A DNA stretch of 16,902 nt from an uncultured Thermoplasmata archaeon (GTDB lineage: Archaea > Thermoplasmatota > Thermoplasmata > Methanomassiliicoccales > Methanomethylophilaceae). The translations under genes and the position numbers were made by a program. Below the pieces are notes generated by a model. That model saw only the letters and a list, made by a program, of their open reading frames with translations, was not told the origin of the DNA and did not search any database. This document shows, in pieces, positions 2,977 to 16,088 of this stretch (positions are counted from its first letter, which is position 1; each line of letters opens with the position of its first letter). The stretch is from NCBI GenBank assembly GCA_946545675.1, contig CAMNNR010000011.1, positions 1-16,902 on the forward strand, read 5' to 3'.

Positions 2977-4005
2977 TCATCCCTTGATTGCCTTGACAAG
3001 GGCCCTGATGTTGTCGTCAGGGGTTCCGATGGGCACACCGCATCCGGCGGAGATGACGTTGAATCCCGCTTCGGCACTTGCCTTGGCGGCGGCCGCCACG
3101 TCCTCGGGCTTTCCCTTGAAGAGAGGGAAGGCGCATCCGACGTTTCCGACCATGCATCCCCTGTGGTTTGCGATCTCTATCGCCTTCTTCGGGGGGACCT
3201 TCTCCTCGACGGAGATTCCGTCAACACCGGTATCCAGCATGTACGGGATGATGGGTGCGGAGTCTCCGCAGATGTGAAGGATGGTGTGTCCCTTCAGACT
3301 GCCGAGACAGCTCTTCACGAACTGTCCGGACTGCACGGGGAAGTCGGAGGGTGCCAGGATATCCGTGGAAGCCGAAGGCTCCGACATCTGCACCATGTCC
3401 GCTCCGTTGTCGAGCATCGCCTGACCGAAGGCCTTACAGTAGGGTGCGATGGCACCTACCCACTTCTGGGCCCTCTCGGGTTCCGTCCAAACCGAATACA
3501 CGAGGTTCTCGGTGTTGAGCAGGTGTCCGGTAAGGGTGAACGGTCCGGTGTTACCTCCGATGACGACGTAATCCTCACCGTGGGTCTTCTGCATGATCGC
3601 CATCGCGTCGATGGCGGTCTTGACCCTGCCGGTCTTGAGGAATTCATCGATGTCCGGAAGGTCGTCCGGCTCGTCGTAGATCTTCTTCATCGGGTTGTAG
3701 GTGAAGGGGTGTCCCTTCAGCATGGGTGATGAAGTGGGGGTTCCCAGGTCGATGGGGCAGCCGAGTGCCTCCGCCTCTTCGGTGAGGCAGAATCCTGCCC
3801 TGACCGACTCCAGACCGAAGTAGTCAGCCTGTGCGCATGCCAGGGTAGCCATCTTCTGGGGGTCGGCATGTGCCTCGGGCCAGGTAGCTCCGCAGGCCTT
3901 CATCATTCCGATGGTGTCGCAAGTCGTGAAGACCGCCACAGGGGGGCGGTCCAGGGGTTCCTGCTTGAGTGCCGCAAGTACTCTGTCTCTGCATGACATT
4001 GCCAT
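2977..4005 (-). CDS. Methylcobamide:coenzyme M methyltransferase (MtsA/MtbA/MtaA family)
   Basis: A protein of the uroporphyrinogen-decarboxylase-like superfamily, full length at 342 residues from ATG 4005; GTG at 4014 would add three. The zinc site of the family is present: H247-x-C249 in LHICGD and C325 in SAGCG (numbered from the GTG). In the family, this zinc binds coenzyme M thiolate, which attacks the methyl-Co(III) of the partner corrinoid protein to give methyl-CoM. ATG 4005 is preferred because AGGTG lies 8 nt ahead of it; the gene then starts just after the corrinoid-protein stop (TGA, 4011-4013). Sequence alone does not separate MtaA (methanol), MtbA (methylamines) and MtsA (methyl sulfides). 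The tight pairing with one corrinoid protein and the absence of a substrate methyltransferase favour an MtsA-like role, which is inference. Confidence 0.88.
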   Translation of the reverse strand: MAMSCRDRVLAALKQEPLDRPPVAVFTTCDTIGMMKACGATWPEAHADPQKMATLACAQADYFGLESVRAGFCLTEEAEALGCPIDLGTPTSSPMLKGHPFTYNPMKKIYDEPDDLPDIDEFLKTGRVKTAIDAMAIMQKTHGEDYVVIGGNTGPFTLTGHLLNTENLVYSVWTEPERAQKWVGAIAPYCKAFGQAMLDNGADMVQMSEPSASTDILAPSDFPVQSGQFVKSCLGSLKGHTILHICGDSAPIIPYMLDTGVDGISVEEKVPPKKAIEIANHRGCMVGNVGCAFPLFKGKPEDVAAAAKASAEAGFNVISAGCGVPIGTPDDNIRALVKAIKG

Positions 4006-4010
4006 TTCAA

Positions 4011-4649
4011 TCACACCTTCGAATTGATGAACTTCACAGCCTGCTGTGCGTTCTCGTCTCTGTGGTCAGCTCCGATCTCCTCTGCGAATGCATCGGTCGT
4101 CGGAGGTCCTCCGATGGTAACCACGACCTTGTCGCGGTAACCGCTTTCTCCAATCAATTTCAACGTCTTCGCCATGTTGTCCATGGTAGGCGTCATCAAA
4201 GTACTGAGGCACACTACCTCTGCCCTGTCCGCCAGCATCGTCTGTGTGATGGTGGCGGGCGGTACGTCCTTTCCTGCGTCGTTCACGAGGAAACCAGCTG
4301 CTGTGAGCATGGTCTTCACGATATTCTTTCCGATATCGTGGACGTCACCCTGTACGACAGCGGTGATCGCCTTTTTCGCAGTCACGTTCTCGTCCTTGGG
4401 GATGGCAGGTATGAGGACATCCAGTCCCTCATACATACTGTGAGCGGCAACCAGTACCTGCGGGAGGTACATCTTGCGCTCTGCGTAGTTGTCTCCTATG
4501 ACTCCCATTCCGACGACCAAACCTTCGTTGATCGCCTTGACGGGATCCATTCCCTCAGCGAGCGCTGTCTCTGCTGCCTTCTTGGCCCTCGGGGGGTCAC
4601 AGGCAACAACAGCGTCAGCTAGTTCCTTCAGAATAGAACTCTCATCCAT
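4011..4649 (-). CDS. Methyltransferase corrinoid protein (MtsB/MtbC/MttC type)
   Basis: 212 residues: an N-terminal four-helix cap domain (about 1-88) and a Rossmann-like B12-binding domain (about 93-212). The DVHDIG motif is at 102-107, with His104 as the expected lower axial cobalt ligand. The later LSTLMTPTM (148-156) and IGGPPTT (179-185) segments match the base-accepting pocket of the family. The C-terminal GAD is followed by HRD rather than the usual GY, a small departure. The protein would carry the methyl group from substrate to the zinc methyltransferase encoded next. A strong AGGAGG lies 8 nt ahead of the ATG. The leader is about 70 nt if transcription starts about 26 bp after the TATA box at 4745-4753. 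Stop TGA. The exact substrate class is undecided. Confidence 0.9.
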   Translation of the reverse strand: MDESSILKELADAVVACDPPRAKKAAETALAEGMDPVKAINEGLVVGMGVIGDNYAERKMYLPQVLVAAHSMYEGLDVLIPAIPKDENVTAKKAITAVVQGDVHDIGKNIVKTMLTAAGFLVNDAGKDVPPATITQTMLADRAEVVCLSTLMTPTMDNMAKTLKLIGESGYRDKVVVTIGGPPTTDAFAEEIGADHRDENAQQAVKFINSKV

Positions 4650-4744: not shown

Positions 4745-4753
4745 GAATATAAA
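4745..4753 (-). promoter_or_regulatory. TATA box of the corrinoid protein gene
   Basis: TTTATATTC on the minus strand, about 100 bp before the ATG at 4649. It implies an own promoter for the corrinoid protein and methyltransferase pair, separate from the MFS promoter, with a leader of about 70-75 nt. Confidence 0.6.
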
Positions 4754-4762
4754 TGAGGTTTT

Positions 4763-4776
4763 GCGAACATGTACGG
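4763..4776 (-). promoter_or_regulatory. Candidate operator, copy 1 (corrinoid protein promoter)
   Basis: The plus strand reads GCGAACATGTACGG, matching the palindrome GCGAACATGTTCGC at 12 of 14 positions. Its centre lies about 20 bp upstream of the TATA box. Two other copies precede the MFS gene and the corrinoid adenosyltransferase gene in the same position. Confidence 0.6.
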
Positions 4777-4807
4777 GGATTGGCCGTATTTAACGGCCGT
4801 TTCCCCG
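4774..4807 (-). terminator. Hairpin after the MFS transporter gene
   Basis: Outer stem CGGGGA (4774-4779) with TCCCCG (4802-4807), inner stem GGCCGT (4782-4787) with ACGGCC (4793-4798), and a small internal loop. It begins about 10 nt past the MFS stop and is not followed by a T-run. It could partly end MFS transcripts while the corrinoid promoter restarts transcription. Its far edge overlaps the candidate operator at 4763-4776. Confidence 0.45.
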
Positions 4808-4816
4808 CTTTTCAAA

Positions 4817-6118
4817 TCAGTTTCTCTCCTTCTCGACAGAGAGGAAGGCGCACACGCATGCGATTACCATCAGGACCAGGGCCATGAGCCATACGGTCTG
4901 GTACTGTGCGAGGGTCTTGTCGGTGACAATGAATCCCGCGATGGTGATAAGGATCGCACCTCCCGCGAAGGGGAACAGGTTGAGTGCTGCAGTAGAGGTA
5001 CCGGCCATTGCGATGGGGTAGAGCTCCTTGATCTGTGCGTAGGACACGACGAAGAATCCTCCGAAGAATCCGAACAGGAAGTTGATCGCTGCCTGGATTG
5101 CGAAGTTGTTCATCGATTCCATACCTGCGGTTGCCCAGATGATCGCCCAGATCACGGTGTATACCAGAGTACCTATTATGACGACCTTCTTCCTGGAGTT
5201 GAGAACCCTGTCGGAAAGCCTTCCGGCGAGGGGACATCCGACGACCATTCCGATTCCGATCATGGTCAGGAGTAGTCCCGCATCGTCCTTGCTGAATCCG
5301 CAGACACCCTGGTAGTAGGATCCCGCCTGGGATGCCTGCCAGAGCATGATGGTTCCGTAAAGGGCGAAGAACCAGATGGCGAGAGGCCAGAACTTCCTTC
5401 CACTGGTGAAGGTCATCTTGAGGGCCTCGACGGTTCCGATCTTGTCGGTGTTCTTCTCGAGGATGGGTTCGCCGGTCTCTTCGGAGACGATCTCCTCGAT
5501 GGAGGGGAAGTCCTTCTCCGCGGGGAAGTTGCGAACGATAAGGAAACAAAGTCCCGCTATGGCTGCAGTGATCACAGCGAGGACGATGTAAGTCATCTCG
5601 ATTCCGAGTGCATCCATCATGATGACCATGGGGGTAGCGGCGGCGATTCCTCCGACGTTACCGACCAGGAGCAGGATACCGCTCATGGATGCGAACTCGT
5701 TCTTACGGAACCAGACAGCCAGCACCTTCATGATTGGGATGTAGACGACGGCAGCTCCGATACCAATCAGGAACTTACCGGCGATCATCAGGTCGAAGTT
5801 GTTGATGTTCGCTGATACCGCACTAAGAATGGATCCGACGGCGATGAGTGCTATGAAAGCGGACGCCGCGGTCCTGGGCCCCAGCTTATCCGTGAGGATT
5901 CCGCTGGGAATCTGCATTAACGTGTATGCGTACAGGTACGCGGACGCCAGCAGTGCGACGGATGCCGATCCGACACCGAACGCCTCCTGCAGGGTGGTGG
6001 AGATTGCTCCTCCCGTGGTCCTGTGGAAATACACAAAGAAGTATGCTATCGCAAGTACGCCGAATATGGCCCACCTGTATCCCAGCATCTTCTTCTTCGA
6101 TTCTTCATTGATGGTCAT
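4817..6118 (-). CDS. MFS transporter, substrate unknown
   Basis: 433 residues with about twelve hydrophobic segments in two halves, split by a charged cytoplasmic loop (about 195-247). The MFS motif A is present in the first half (GILTDKLGPR, 73-82) and again, degenerate, in the second half (GRLSDRVLNSRKK). YFHRT near residue 30 resembles first-helix motifs of anion/organic-acid type MFS porters. AGGAGAGG lies about 6 nt before the ATG at 6118. It is encoded upstream of the corrinoid protein and methyltransferase on the same strand and shares a promoter-proximal palindrome with them. A role in importing a methylated substrate, or exporting its demethylated product, is therefore likely but inferred. 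Stop TGA. Confidence 0.88.
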   Translation of the reverse strand: MTINEESKKKMLGYRWAIFGVLAIAYFFVYFHRTTGGAISTTLQEAFGVGSASVALLASAYLYAYTLMQIPSGILTDKLGPRTAASAFIALIAVGSILSAVSANINNFDLMIAGKFLIGIGAAVVYIPIMKVLAVWFRKNEFASMSGILLLVGNVGGIAAATPMVIMMDALGIEMTYIVLAVITAAIAGLCFLIVRNFPAEKDFPSIEEIVSEETGEPILEKNTDKIGTVEALKMTFTSGRKFWPLAIWFFALYGTIMLWQASQAGSYYQGVCGFSKDDAGLLLTMIGIGMVVGCPLAGRLSDRVLNSRKKVVIIGTLVYTVIWAIIWATAGMESMNNFAIQAAINFLFGFFGGFFVVSYAQIKELYPIAMAGTSTAALNLFPFAGGAILITIAGFIVTDKTLAQYQTVWLMALVLMVIACVCAFLSVEKERN

Positions 6119-6130
6119 TCAAACCTCTCC

Positions 6131-6143
6131 TGGCAGAACAAGG
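6131..6143 (-). promoter_or_regulatory. 13-nt leader element shared, inverted, with the corrinoid gene leader
   Basis: The MFS mRNA reads CCTTGTTCTGCCA here, ending next to its Shine-Dalgarno sequence. It is the exact complement of the element in the corrinoid-protein leader (4714-4726), so an RNA-RNA interaction or a protein site used in either orientation is possible. Confidence 0.5.
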
Positions 6144-6176
6144 TCGATCAACCAATTGTTCAATCTCCGTTAACCA

Positions 6177-6186
6177 CTATATAAAG
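6177..6186 (-). promoter_or_regulatory. TATA box of the MFS transporter gene
   Basis: CTTTATATAG on the minus strand. A start site about 26 bp downstream gives a leader of roughly 35-40 nt before the ATG at 6118. The overlapping word TAACCACTAT (6171-6180) also occurs, inverted, beside the corrinoid-gene TATA box (4735-4744). Confidence 0.6.
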
Positions 6187-6190
6187 AATT

Positions 6191-6204
6191 GCGAACATAG
6201 TCTT
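6191..6204 (-). promoter_or_regulatory. Candidate operator, copy 2 (MFS promoter)
   Basis: The plus strand reads GCGAACATAGTCTT: one perfect half-site (GCGAACAT) of the GCGAACATGTTCGC palindrome and a degenerate second half. It is centred about 16 bp upstream of the TATA box. Confidence 0.5.
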
Positions 6205-6217
6205 TTATTGACTATGT
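6195..6217. promoter_or_regulatory. 8-bp inverted repeat upstream of the MFS promoter
   Basis: ACATAGTC (6195-6202), 7-nt spacer, GACTATGT (6210-6217), a perfect dyad overlapping operator copy 2. It is not seen at the other two promoters, so it may be specific to the transporter gene. Confidence 0.5.
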
Positions 6218-6325
6218 CAAGATTTATATTGCTGATTCAATGAAGAATATTTTCTATCACAAAATATTACAATCATTTATAAATATTTATATAATAAAAA
6301 GAAATGGAGAAATATATTATCCAAC
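6218..6325. other. AT-rich divergent intergenic region
   Basis: This stretch between the MFS and adenosyltransferase promoters is strongly AT-rich with many TATA-like words. No credible gene, RNA or repeat is seen in it. It probably serves as upstream promoter or chromatin-accessible DNA. Confidence 0.5.
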
Positions 6326-6339
6326 CAGAACATGTTCGC
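6326..6339 (+). promoter_or_regulatory. Candidate operator, copy 3 (corrinoid adenosyltransferase promoter)
   Basis: It reads CAGAACATGTTCGC, 12 of 14 matches to GCGAACATGTTCGC, with a perfect 10-bp palindromic core GAACATGTTC (6328-6337). It is centred about 18 bp upstream of the TATA-like box at 6348-6353. Confidence 0.6.
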
Positions 6340-10064: not shown

Positions 10065-10138
10065 TGGAGTCGGGGGAGGGAATCGAACCCCCATATGAGG
10101 ATCTGCAGTCCCCCTCATAGCCACTGTGATACCCCGAC
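10065..10138 (-). tRNA. tRNA-Cys, anticodon GCA
   Basis: A cloverleaf folds on the minus strand. Acceptor GTCGGGG pairs perfectly with CCCCGAC; the D stem is TCAC/ATGA (three pairs). The anticodon stem GGGGA/TCCTC holds the loop CTGCAGA with anticodon GCA. The variable loop is 4 nt, and the T arm is GGGGG-TTCGATT-CCCTC. Position 73 is U, the usual tRNA-Cys discriminator, and CCA is encoded (10065-10067). A TTTAATAC box lies about 30 bp upstream. No intron is seen. Confidence 0.95.
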
Positions 10139-12737: not shown

Positions 12738-15700
12738 ATGAAATCCAAAACGATTGTATTCATTGCAATTGTCATGGCGTTCGCTATGGTCATGCCGGTC
12801 TCTGCGTTTGTCAGCAACGCAGACCCTGAAGTGCCCATAGACGACCCCGAGCCCACTGATGACTCCTCAGGAAGTTCGTTCCTAAACCTTCCTGTGGACA
12901 AAGAGGGCGTCACCAAAGCTCTGATAGCGATTCTCACTGAAAAGCCCGAGGAGGCGAAGGAAGAGAAAAAGATCTCCACGGATACCACGATAGGTTCCGG
13001 AGAGGTGGAAATCGTCAACTACGATTACGTATTCACCGAAGGAGCTACCCTTACCGTCAAGGCAGGAGGATACTTCCTGATCGTGATTTCCCACGCATTC
13101 TCGTTCACTTCCGCAGATAAGTTCGCAGAAATAATTTTCGAGGAGGGTTCCAACCTCGCTATCCTCACCAAAGCACCTTTGGACGAGGATGAAAAGATCG
13201 ATACCACCCTCATCGAAGACCTTGCTGTATGGCAGAAGACCTTCGAGTTCGATGAATCCTTCTGCTTCAAAGGAAGCATGTCTTACGGCATCACTAATGA
13301 TGCCCCCCTCAAAACCGTCAGCCTCAAAGCCGCCAGCGGTTTTGCAGTTAGGGATGATGCAGCTGATGATGCATACACCACCGAATCCGTACTCACCAAG
13401 GATTCCAGTGTCAGTGCTAAGATTACTACTGCACTTCCGATGACTGTCGAGGCTGTAATCGACGCTGAAGCTATCCAGACCATGCACGCCCAGAGCGATG
13501 CAAAGGTCGAGAACAAGTTCTCTGTCAACTCTGTCACCAATGTGACTGCTAACTATAGCGAAAAGGCACTGACCGCCGACATCGTCACCAACTCCACCAT
13601 CACCGCATCTTCAACTTCCGACGGAGTATCTATCCCCGTCACCCTGAAGGTCGATGGAGATGTGGATGTCAAACTGGCCGATTTCGACCCCCTGGTACTC
13701 TTCGGCGAAGGGAGCTTAGACGGTATCACTCCTGAATTCGCCGGTACCCTCACCCTCACCTTTGCCGTCGGTAACTTCACCGACTATCAGGCCGGCAAGG
13801 CCAAGATGACCGCCGAGGGACTCACTCTCAAAGCGAGCGCCACCATCGACAGCTCCTCTGTCGCCGTTGCCGCAGAGCTTTCAGCGGGAAAACTGGCTGT
13901 CGATTCCGACAGTGCAACCAACCCTGTCAGCGCCGAGATCAGCAATCTTTTCCTGGGCATCGGACTCAAACTGGCAAAGGTCGCACCCACCCCCGTCCCC
14001 ACCGGCGAAGAGATTGTCGATGACATCGATTCCGGATTGATGCCCGGCGTTTCCATGTCTCCTGCATCGATGATCGCCACCATGTACACCCAGATCGCTA
14101 CCGCATACGTCGAGCATTTCGCTTCGATGACGGATGAGGAGCGCGCAAAACTTACCGACGCCGATTACAATGTGTTCGCCTTCGACAGCATCTTCGGCAT
14201 GGTTAATCCCATGATCGCTGCCACCGGATACGAGGTCAGCGAGGTAAGCCTCAAGGCCTCAGTAGGAAAGGCGGTCGTCGACGCCGGACCCGCCGACATC
14301 ACTGCTGACAATGCTTCCTTCGAGGCAGTAATCAGCAAGGATTCCGGTATTTCCGTCAACGTGAAAGTCGGATACGCCCACGCAATCGTCCAGACCGTTA
14401 CCAAGATGGTCGTCTATCTCCAGAATGTCGAAATCGACGTCATGAACTCCAAGGAGAAGGACACCTTCCTCGACATTAGTGTCAAGGGAGACTTTGATGT
14501 CATCATGTATGCAAACGGCAAGCTCAACATGGAGATCTACTTCGCCGGCGTGCAGGCAAATGCCCGTATGGGTGCGGACCCTTCCAAACCCGTTATCCCC
14601 GGTCTGTCCGTTGATACCGCAGAGGTAACCCAGGAAGGTGTCGTCTTCGCATTCGAGGACATCTCCTTCGATAACGCCACCTCCACACTCAAAGCCAAGA
14701 CCCTCAAGGTCAGCGGTTCCTATTATGGTAAGGAGTACCGCCTCATGGGAGTCAGCGGTACCATGAGCGACTACCAGGCCACCATCGGAGGCGGAATGAC
14801 CATCGGTTCCTACGAGATCACCGCTACCGATGTCAATGGCAACACCATCGAGGTCACCAAGAAGTATGACTCCGCCGCAAAGGAGATCGTCACAACCGTG
14901 AGCACCACCGGACCCTTCTGGGCAAGGGAACTGTTCCTCGCCGATGGTATCGACAACTACCTCAATGCCCCCATCGCCGGTGCTGATGCTTCCGCTACCG
15001 ACCGTCTCGTCGTCACCAGCGGACAGCTGATCTTCAGTGAGAACAACTCCGATATCGCGGAAAAGTATGGTTTCGAGAAGATCACCGGTGAGATATACCT
15101 CGCATCCGCAGATGTGACGGGATTCACCGATGCATTCAGCTCCATCACCCTGCCTGACGGAACCGAGTACACCTTCAGTCTCGTCGGATGTGCTCTCGGC
15201 CTCGTGTTCGATAAAGACGCAGTCGCTTCCTACAAGGTCTTCGTCTTCCCCGGATTCGGAACCGAGTTCACCAACCTGAAGAACATCAAAGTGAACGCCG
15301 ACCTCACCGCAGAGGTTACCGATACCGCTAACATCAGTTGCACCGCATCCGCCGATGTGTTCGAGATCATCCTCGACGGAAAATCCATCACCAAGGAAGC
15401 CAAGGCTGACAATGAATTCGTATATGATGTAGGTGCCAAGGTCGTCGCAGTCGTCGATGCCAACGGAGCCATCGTAGGAAGTGTCGCTGACAGTAAGTGG
15501 ACCTACACCCGCCACATGGGAACCGGTACACTGAACCTCACCACCGTCGAGGCAGAAACCATCGATTCTGTCATCGCGGGACTCAATACCGTCCAGGGTA
15601 AGGCCGTGAGTTTCACCGCCCCCACCCTCGATGTTACCAACCCCGCAATCCTGGCATTCAGCGATTCCGGACTCCGTTTCGAGATCAAGGACGCAACCTA

Positions 15701-16088
15701 CAGCGGACAGCCGATGAACGTCATCGCCCAGCAGACCCAGTACAACGGAAAGAACGCATTCATCGTCAAGGTGCTCAGCGGAGAGGAAGCAGTCCCCTCC
15801 ACTTTCTGCTTCCCTATTGAGAAGGACAACATGAAACTGATGCACGTCGACGAGTTCGGAAGGGTCAGCACCCTGGCCTCCGATGTCGTTACCATCGACG
15901 GTAAGATGTACCTGCAGGCTGACATGTCGGACTACTCCATCCTCTATGTAGAGGAGGATAACCCCCACATCGGCCCCCAGCCCACCAGCTCTGAGAGCAA
16001 CCTGCTCGTCTTCGTCGGTGCCGCTGTCGCAGCTCTTGCTATCATCGCTGTCGTGGTGTTCTTCGTCGTAAGGTCGAAGAAGGCTTGA
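12738..16088 (+). CDS. Large secreted surface protein with C-terminal membrane anchor
   Basis: 1116 residues. A signal peptide (1 to about 28) is followed by an acidic Asp/Pro/Ser linker (29-48). A long beta-rich, Thr/Ser/Ala/Val-rich ectodomain reaches about residue 1075, then a short linker, a membrane helix (about 1088-1111) and the positive tail RSKKA. Two parts of the ectodomain look duplicated: VSLKA then KDS at 194-223, and VSLKA then KDS at 503-536, each followed by a GD(V/F)DV-type strand. No catalytic motif or sortase signal is seen. Strong ribosome binding, a strong C-ending codon bias (ACC, ATC, GTC, AAC) and a UUCG-loop hairpin after the stop suggest high expression. A cell-envelope or S-layer-like role is inferred. 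The family was not recognised. Stop TGA. Confidence 0.88.
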   Translation: MKSKTIVFIAIVMAFAMVMPVSAFVSNADPEVPIDDPEPTDDSSGSSFLNLPVDKEGVTKALIAILTEKPEEAKEEKKISTDTTIGSGEVEIVNYDYVFTEGATLTVKAGGYFLIVISHAFSFTSADKFAEIIFEEGSNLAILTKAPLDEDEKIDTTLIEDLAVWQKTFEFDESFCFKGSMSYGITNDAPLKTVSLKAASGFAVRDDAADDAYTTESVLTKDSSVSAKITTALPMTVEAVIDAEAIQTMHAQSDAKVENKFSVNSVTNVTANYSEKALTADIVTNSTITASSTSDGVSIPVTLKVDGDVDVKLADFDPLVLFGEGSLDGITPEFAGTLTLTFAVGNFTDYQAGKAKMTAEGLTLKASATIDSSSVAVAAELSAGKLAVDSDSATNPVSAEISNLFLGIGLKLAKVAPTPVPTGEEIVDDIDSGLMPGVSMSPASMIATMYTQIATAYVEHFASMTDEERAKLTDADYNVFAFDSIFGMVNPMIAATGYEVSEVSLKASVGKAVVDAGPADITADNASFEAVISKDSGISVNVKVGYAHAIVQTVTKMVVYLQNVEIDVMNSKEKDTFLDISVKGDFDVIMYANGKLNMEIYFAGVQANARMGADPSKPVIPGLSVDTAEVTQEGVVFAFEDISFDNATSTLKAKTLKVSGSYYGKEYRLMGVSGTMSDYQATIGGGMTIGSYEITATDVNGNTIEVTKKYDSAAKEIVTTVSTTGPFWARELFLADGIDNYLNAPIAGADASATDRLVVTSGQLIFSENNSDIAEKYGFEKITGEIYLASADVTGFTDAFSSITLPDGTEYTFSLVGCALGLVFDKDAVASYKVFVFPGFGTEFTNLKNIKVNADLTAEVTDTANISCTASADVFEIILDGKSITKEAKADNEFVYDVGAKVVAVVDANGAIVGSVADSKWTYTRHMGTGTLNLTTVEAETIDSVIAGLNTVQGKAVSFTAPTLDVTNPAILAFSDSGLRFEIKDATYSGQPMNVIAQQTQYNGKNAFIVKVLSGEEAVPSTFCFPIEKDNMKLMHVDEFGRVSTLASDVVTIDGKMYLQADMSDYSILYVEEDNPHIGPQPTSSESNLLVFVGAAVAALAIIAVVVFFVVRSKKA

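Follow-up and report, generated by a model that had tools for sequence, protein, structure and literature searches.

Three related palindromes precede three genes in a stretch of 16,902 nucleotides from an uncultured archaeon of the Methanomassiliicoccales (contig CAMNNR010000011.1 of assembly GCA_946545675.1; called the window here, in its full length), and they raise the question of whether a methanogen of this order joins the uptake of a methylated compound, the transfer of its methyl group and the adenosylation of corrinoids under one operator, and which protein would read it. The genes encode a corrinoid protein (MtxC), an MFS transporter and an ATP:corrinoid adenosyltransferase (CobA). 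A preliminary description had proposed a 14-bp palindrome read by a single DNA-binding regulator, and thus a small regulon. We favour, with a probability of roughly 0.68, the reading that a small regulon for methyl compounds is activated from a 12-mer palindrome, CGAACATGTTCG, and that this site is read by an HTH_10 (Bat/NarO-type) regulator encoded on another contig of the same genome (G000:C90:4340-4984).

The three sites stand exactly where the preliminary description had placed them and match its 14-mer as it had counted (12, 10 and 12 of 14 positions), and the spacing of 16-20 bp to the TATA box that it had given holds as well: the centre-to-centre distances are 20 bp at the corrinoid-protein gene, 16 bp at the MFS gene and 17 bp at the adenosyltransferase gene. 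On each promoter strand ATGTTCGC is followed by a TATA-like box, which indicates that the element has an orientation and a place ahead of TATA. Since the centre of the adenosyltransferase TATA box is only ~26 bp from the ATG, that transcript is likely to be leaderless. When the window was scanned for the 14-mer with up to three mismatches, four places were found against 0.70 expected, and as many in 1 of 200 shuffles; two of the four are among the three described sites, while the site at 6191, with four mismatches, falls outside, and the window by itself therefore argues only weakly for an operator.

The case is decided by conservation, that is by empty controls and a fixed place in promoters, rather than by counts in the window. 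In G000 and 60 relatives the conserved unit is not the 14-bp palindrome but the 12-mer CGAACATGTTCG, just upstream of the TATA box. Exact copies occur at 41 places in 27 of these 61 genomes (G000 itself has none), the reversal of the 12-mer occurs nowhere in them, and neither does a control palindrome of equal composition, CGACAATTGTCG, whose own reversal is found once. Across the order, 64 of 147 genomes have the exact 12-mer and none has the reversal; the follow-up of these sites covered the list minus a part that includes G133-G143. In the 14 genomes of the genus (five of them searched singly), copies with one mismatch or none number 5 to 16 per genome, compared to 0 to 4 for the reversal.

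A genome scan of the kind suggested in the preliminary description gave a divided answer. In a loose form the motif is partly background: the own genome holds 73 copies of the 8-mer ATGTTCGC, and of its nine 12-mers with at most one mismatch, none of them exact, six are coding. At orthologous promoters, the fixed place is kept for the MFS and corrinoid-protein genes. The three other near-12-mers are two of the window promoters and a site upstream of another gene. This last site, CGAATATGTTCG at G000:C8:556-567 (L264:556-567), is non-coding and lies 62 bp before a DUF6951 gene, a possible fourth target, which is followed by a hydantoinase/oxoprolinase-like gene. Coding copies are also frequent in the wider set, where 33 of 48 distinct one-mismatch sites viewed in context are coding; gene calls around exact and one-mismatch sites come from a crude caller, and some starts and short open reading frames will be wrong. 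The 12-mer further recurs at one conserved place in dehydrogenase-like genes (L093, L120, L121, L122, L124 and others), where by eye it forms codons of a PNMFGD stretch; such copies are background to be removed from genome scans.

Promoter alignments of the MFS gene (10 genomes) and the corrinoid-protein gene (6 genomes) have the TATA-proximal part of the palindrome well conserved, followed by the TATA block. At the corrinoid-protein gene of relatives the site is exact in G005 and G002, and has one mismatch in G033, two in G012 and three in G006; at the aligned MFS position there are 0 or 1 mismatch in G005, G033, G002, G030 and G018, and three in G006 and G010. The MFS site is degenerate or gone in G007, where the regulator was not found either. 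We also compared 29 MFS promoters of 200 bp, from loci of a named collection that were picked by protein similarity alone (33 loci, minus the fragmentary L302 and L307 and the Acinetobacter loci L308 and L309): ten have an exact site, six have one mismatch, four have two and nine have four or five, counts that are not fully independent, since L285 and L286 are close kin, as are the Methanothrix loci. None of 114 other promoters in those loci, outside the cassette, has a site with two mismatches or fewer, and 2,831 random 200-bp stretches gave no exact site, six with one mismatch and 31 with two.

Spacing was compared in 42 target promoters whose site has one mismatch or none, many of them fetched for carrying it: in 18 the best TATA-like octamer begins 9 bases past the palindrome, and A/T makes up 71 to 95% of columns 10 to 16. 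The operator is thus found where archaeal upstream activating sites are found, just upstream of the transcription factor B recognition element (BRE) and TATA box and on the promoter strand. Judged from these sequence comparisons, the sites of the transporter and corrinoid-protein genes are conserved; the palindrome as such extends over genera and families of the order and is also kept at an MFS gene of Methanothrix.

The adenosyltransferase site has a narrower distribution. Thirty cobA homologues were fetched and 29 of their promoters tested, the upstream DNA of L320 being unusable; G000 and G005 alone have a one-mismatch site, at -49 in each, and in both of them cobA adjoins the MFS gene or the cassette. 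The cobA genes of G010 and G013 have a three-mismatch site at -51, and four further genomes have such sites at other distances, which puts this level of match near chance; the remaining promoters have four or more mismatches. By this comparison the cobA site is real in the species pair G000/G005, but it is a local recruitment. The proposal of one regulator and a small regulon is accordingly upheld for the transporter and methyl-transfer genes, with their conserved site and the regulator gene in the cassette, but is weakly supported for cobA.

Elsewhere, 70 loci fetched for exact copies hold 84 distinct sites, of which 37 are coding (several in dehydrogenase-like genes) and 47 non-coding. Gene starts lie behind 32 of the non-coding sites (MFS 15, MtxA 10, MtxC 4 and regulator 11, some sites serving divergent pairs), two more, L107 and L208, are plainly at MtxC promoters, and 13 remain beyond these four kinds of gene. 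At L217 the site precedes an APC permease, which is followed by a URO-D enzyme and has a regulator homologue in its vicinity, and at L100 it precedes another APC permease; an exact site in G005 (L108:6001-7736) precedes an EamA-type permease and then small genes of 107 and 47 residues, and that of L220 what appears by eye to be a hydrolase-like gene. The sites of L196, L199 and L207 overlap the start codon (ATGTTCG) and are probably coding. In L225 two sites separate the regulator from a transporter of the GPR1/YaaH family, after which comes an enzyme that by eye is like the MtxA of L223. The palindrome was also seen before an SMR-type transporter pair (L101:6001, L254:1501), exact in G010 and G013 and with one mismatch in G005. 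The recurring pattern is that of a regulator, the operator, a transporter of varying family and a URO-D-type methyltransferase: the transporter type changes between MFS, APC and GPR1/YaaH, while regulator, site and enzyme persist (L217, L225).

The regulator of this pattern has ~205-235 residues and a C-terminal HTH_10 domain (PF04967), and its gene is part of the cassette, often divergent from the MFS gene with a common palindrome. Of 31 MFS loci that we examined, 13 have it within the cassette, and 41 of the 61 genomes were positive in a profile search at E<=1e-8; scans with PF04967 gave one match each in G000, G005, G012, G006 and G011. In the G000 protein HTH_10 is the sole domain at E<=0.001, and as neither PAS nor GAF was found, it is not Bat in the strict sense. 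Both alignments made of the regulator share three invariant cysteines (C19, C38 and C91 in P0001). No regulator was found among the 10 window proteins scanned, which agrees with the preliminary description. In several genomes of the genus the regulator is found between isocitrate/isopropylmalate-dehydrogenase-like (IDH-like) and CYTH-like genes (names given by eye), and in G000 the contig ends where other genomes have the CYTH-like gene; the gene row of G006, which reads IDH-like, regulator, MFS, MtxC, MtxA, CYTH-like, ties the unlinked regulator copies to the cassette.

Regulator and transporter also tend to be present together. Regulator and MFS gene were both scored in 21 of the 61 genomes, the MFS gene alone in two, the regulator alone in three and neither in 35 (sets entered by hand at ~52% identity and 150 bits, with the split MFS gene of G044 counted, the partial one of G045 not counted, and kin included). 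Among named loci, an MFS site with two mismatches or fewer is present in 15 of 16 that are regulator-positive vs 5 of 11 that are regulator-negative (p 0.009; labels entered by hand, L287 and L306 left out); these five all belong to Methanothrix or other Methanosarcinales, and outside these groups the figure is 0 of 5.

The mechanism that we infer, from binding and dimer formation to activation, substrate and signal, would run as follows. The operator, which lies roughly one helical turn ahead of BRE and TATA, would be bound by a single HTH_10 regulator as a dimer beside the TATA box, with one half-site per subunit; the two-fold symmetry of a 12-bp site fits a dimer. The bound regulator may then help to recruit TBP/TFB, which the place of the site upstream of BRE/TATA fits, like the upstream activator sequences of bop (PMC2253796; this and the other papers are cited from their accessible parts). 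The MFS importer and the corrinoid/coenzyme M (CoM) methyltransferase operon would be switched on together, so that uptake of a methylated compound is coupled to use of its methyl group, and in G000 and one sister species the neighbouring corrinoid adenosyltransferase may have been drawn into the regulon. By analogy, inducer and substrate would most likely be a methylated thiol or a methylthiopropionate-type acid, because the enzyme set, which has no substrate-specific methyltransferase of its own next to it, is like MtsB-MtsA.

A number of observations weigh against an HTH_10-read activating site, and the main one comes from Methanothrix. Metagenome-assembled genomes (MAGs) of this genus carry an exact site (L290:1048, L292:4523, L301:3953) or one with a single mismatch (L291:830) ~90 bp before an MFS gene whose product is 52-55% identical to that of the window, and neither an A1-type regulator nor any HTH_10 was found in these four genomes; either another protein reads the site there, or the gene was transferred and the site is now silent, or the regulator gene is missing from the MAGs. 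In G000, no site with two mismatches or fewer was found in the fetched DNA around the regulator gene; the window MFS operator has only its TATA-proximal half intact, with a degenerate distal half and three mismatches to the 12-mer; and, at a genome completeness of 71%, the gene for a different reader may have been missed. L299 is regulator-positive and site-negative, the MFS site is hardly recognisable in the aligned promoters of G012 and G001, both regulator-positive, and the cobA site is not conserved among the 29 promoters beyond its species pair. From the haloarchaea come three more such points: in Haloferax mediterranei, the 12-mer motif is in 83 promoter regions, and altering the weak one at nar made no significant difference (PMC10062603); the accessible part of that paper identifies no reader of the 12-mer and finds no NarO homologue in the genome; and three of the five haloarchaeal HTH_10 loci that we examined have no palindrome at one mismatch or fewer.

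Were the HTH_10 protein a repressor that is relieved by substrate instead of an activator, the palindromes that end 12 bp before the regulator's own start in L112, L113 and L221 would be well suited to autorepression. At the target promoters, however, the site lies upstream of TATA and not over TATA or the start, and the evidence for Bat and for haloarchaeal nos is for activation (PMC2253796, PMC10062603); we thus consider repression unlikely. We also doubt that a genuine operator is read by a different DNA-binding protein, with the HTH_10 gene as a mere passenger of the cassette. While the Methanothrix sites, the absence of a site at the unlinked regulator of G000 and the unnamed reader in H. 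mediterranei would all suit such a protein, they have to be set against the distribution of MFS sites over regulator-positive and regulator-negative loci, above all the 0 of 5 outside Methanosarcinales, against the Haloferax denitrification cluster, in which the 12-mer is paired with an HTH_10 gene, and against the suspected role of Bat-like regulators in haloarchaeal denitrification (PMC11218638). It is very improbable that a common, loose 8-mer was simply seen three times: its abundance in the own genome, the single shuffle that reached four matches and the 37 coding copies among 84 would agree with chance, but conservation at orthologous promoters and the empty controls would not, and a chance origin is refuted for the MFS and corrinoid-protein sites, though not for cobA sites beyond G000 and G005. 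A corrinoid (B12) riboswitch or other RNA control, which the corrinoid-related genes might call to mind, is scarcely credible, as the sole window match at gathering score in Rfam is a tRNA and a DNA palindrome upstream of TATA is probably outside the transcript.

An HTH_10-read activating site, if true, ties substrate choice in a methanogen to a regulator family known from haloarchaeal responses to oxygen and nitrogen oxides, and it supplies a candidate protein, a 12-bp site and a target list for methyl-substrate regulation in Methanomassiliicoccales. The operator can also be used as a tag for new methyl-substrate transporters, with APC, GPR1/YaaH, EamA and SMR genes already found behind it. 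A wider reading, which we offer tentatively and would rate at somewhat less than even, is that a code of HTH_10 protein and CGAACATGTTCG beside TATA has been kept in archaea as distant as Halobacteria, Methanomassiliicoccales and possibly Methanothrix, and has been put to new use in anaerobic energy metabolism. In Methanomassiliicoccales it would form plug-in cassettes of regulator, operator, interchangeable transporter and URO-D methyltransferase, with or without a corrinoid protein, and the regulator may sense methyl substrate, corrinoid state or redox through its invariant cysteines.

Coordinates of the genes, operators and TATA-like boxes of the window, and of the candidate regulator gene
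Feature	Position	Strand	Evidence
Source genome G000	window = contig C11		1.17 Mb, 71% complete; kin = Methanomassiliicoccales
MtxA, 345 aa, methylcobamide:CoM methyltransferase of MtaA/CmuA (URO-D) group	2977..4014	-	PF01208 4e-61
MtxC, 212 aa corrinoid protein, MtsB/MtbC-like	4011..4649	-	Pfam B12-binding + B12-binding_2
TATA-like box, corrinoid-protein promoter, TTTATATT	4746..4753	-	read from sequence; TTAT block kept in 6-genome alignment
Corrinoid-protein operator, GCGAACATGTACGG	4763..4776	-	12/14; promoter strand CCGTACATGTTCGC, 1 mismatch to CGAACATGTTCG
MFS transporter, 433 aa	4817..6118	-	PF07690 5e-47
TATA-like box, MFS promoter, TTTATATA	6178..6185	-	read from sequence; aligned with relatives
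MFS operator, GCGAACATAGTCTT	6191..6204	-	10/14; promoter strand GACTATGTTCGC
Adenosyltransferase operator, CAGAACATGTTCGC	6326..6339	+	12/14; 1 mismatch to 12-mer
TATA-like box, adenosyltransferase promoter, TATTTAAA	6346..6353	+	read from sequence
ATP:corrinoid adenosyltransferase CobA/BtuR, 180 aa	6376..6918	+	PF02572 3e-60; NF004637, TIGR00708 above cut-off
G000 regulator, 214 aa	C90:4340-4984 (other contig than window)		PF04967 65.4 bits vs cut-off 23.1, 4e-18

MtxA scores above the cut-offs of TIGR01463 (261 bits) and NF004889 (303 bits) and below those of the MtaA and MtbA equivalogs, and MtxC reaches 184 bits with TIGR02370, under the cut-off of 215; the two genes are probably one operon. 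The window MFS protein was matched in 47 of the 61 genomes, its own included. Apart from these genes, the window contains an AMP-phosphorylase-like protein at 1273-2826, whose score of 517.7 is slightly below the AMP phosphorylase cut-off of 535, a tRNA gene at 10068-10138 on the minus strand (Rfam), and, at 12738-16088, an open reading frame of 1116 residues in which, by eye, a signal is present at the N-terminus and a membrane anchor at the C-terminus, the product of which is likely a large surface protein.

Substrate-specific control of methyltransferase genes in Methanosarcina is exerted by Msr regulators, which belong to a different protein family. For the methyl-substrate genes of Methanomassiliicoccales, neither a regulator nor an operator was described in the open-licence papers that our searches listed. 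MtsA-MtsB of the Methanomassiliicoccales ISO4-H5 was assigned to methyl-3-methylthiopropionate, and the accessible part of that paper mentions no operator or HTH_10 regulator for it (PMC5011839). In Methanosarcina and ISO4-H5, this system has one corrinoid protein and one bifunctional CoM methyltransferase, with no third enzyme; the window set is alike, with an MtaA/CmuA-family enzyme beside a corrinoid protein and no third methyltransferase among the 10 window proteins scanned.

The upstream activator sequence of bop differs in sequence from the 12-mer. Bat of Halobacterium salinarum has GAF and PAS domains and a C-terminal helix-turn-helix of the bacterioopsin-activator type, and the promoters of the bop regulon have an upstream activator sequence in common (PMC2253796); the type of helix-turn-helix and the common upstream site are thus alike in the Bat/bop system and in G000, while GAF and PAS are found in Bat only. 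NarO and DmsR are bacterioopsin-activator-like regulators without PAS and GAF, and two NarO/DmsR-like genes, one of them in the nirK-nor cluster, have been proposed as regulators in H. mediterranei (PMC11218638). The operator form of the NarO/DmsR-type regulon, CGAAYATDKTYG, is present upstream of our target promoters, as exact and one-mismatch copies of CGAACATGTTCG.

The 12-mer itself was located in the literature by a text match of GAACATGTTC: the nosZ and nor promoters of H. mediterranei carry CGAACATGTTCG and that of nirK CGAATATGTTCG, at 66 to 79 nt upstream of the ATG, and altering the nos motif lowered promoter activity (PMC10062603). On a plasmid of Haloferax larsenii, nirK and nosZ flank an HTH_10 gene; CGAATATGTTCG is found upstream of nirK, and an exact 12-mer upstream of the next gene. 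The H. larsenii protein has HVO_0513_N at its N-terminus, where the G000 protein has no Pfam domain, and identity of the G000 regulator to haloarchaeal proteins is 40% or less over part of its length (among the 60 of 125 plasmid records listed). In the nirK cluster of a Halobaculum plasmid, CGAACACGTTCG is seen before a cbb3-type oxidase gene (L350:14074) and a MoaD-family gene (L350:14555).

The occurrence of operator and HTH_10 together in two distant archaeal groups is independent support, short of proof in either, for an HTH_10 reader. The word 'undescribed' in the preliminary description can be kept for the regulon, of which we found no account among the open-licence papers listed by our searches, but not for the operator, which is published for haloarchaeal denitrification promoters (PMC10062603). 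The same 12-mer serves respiration genes there and transporter and methyltransferase genes of a methanogen here; the novelty therefore lies in the regulon, while the operator was already known.

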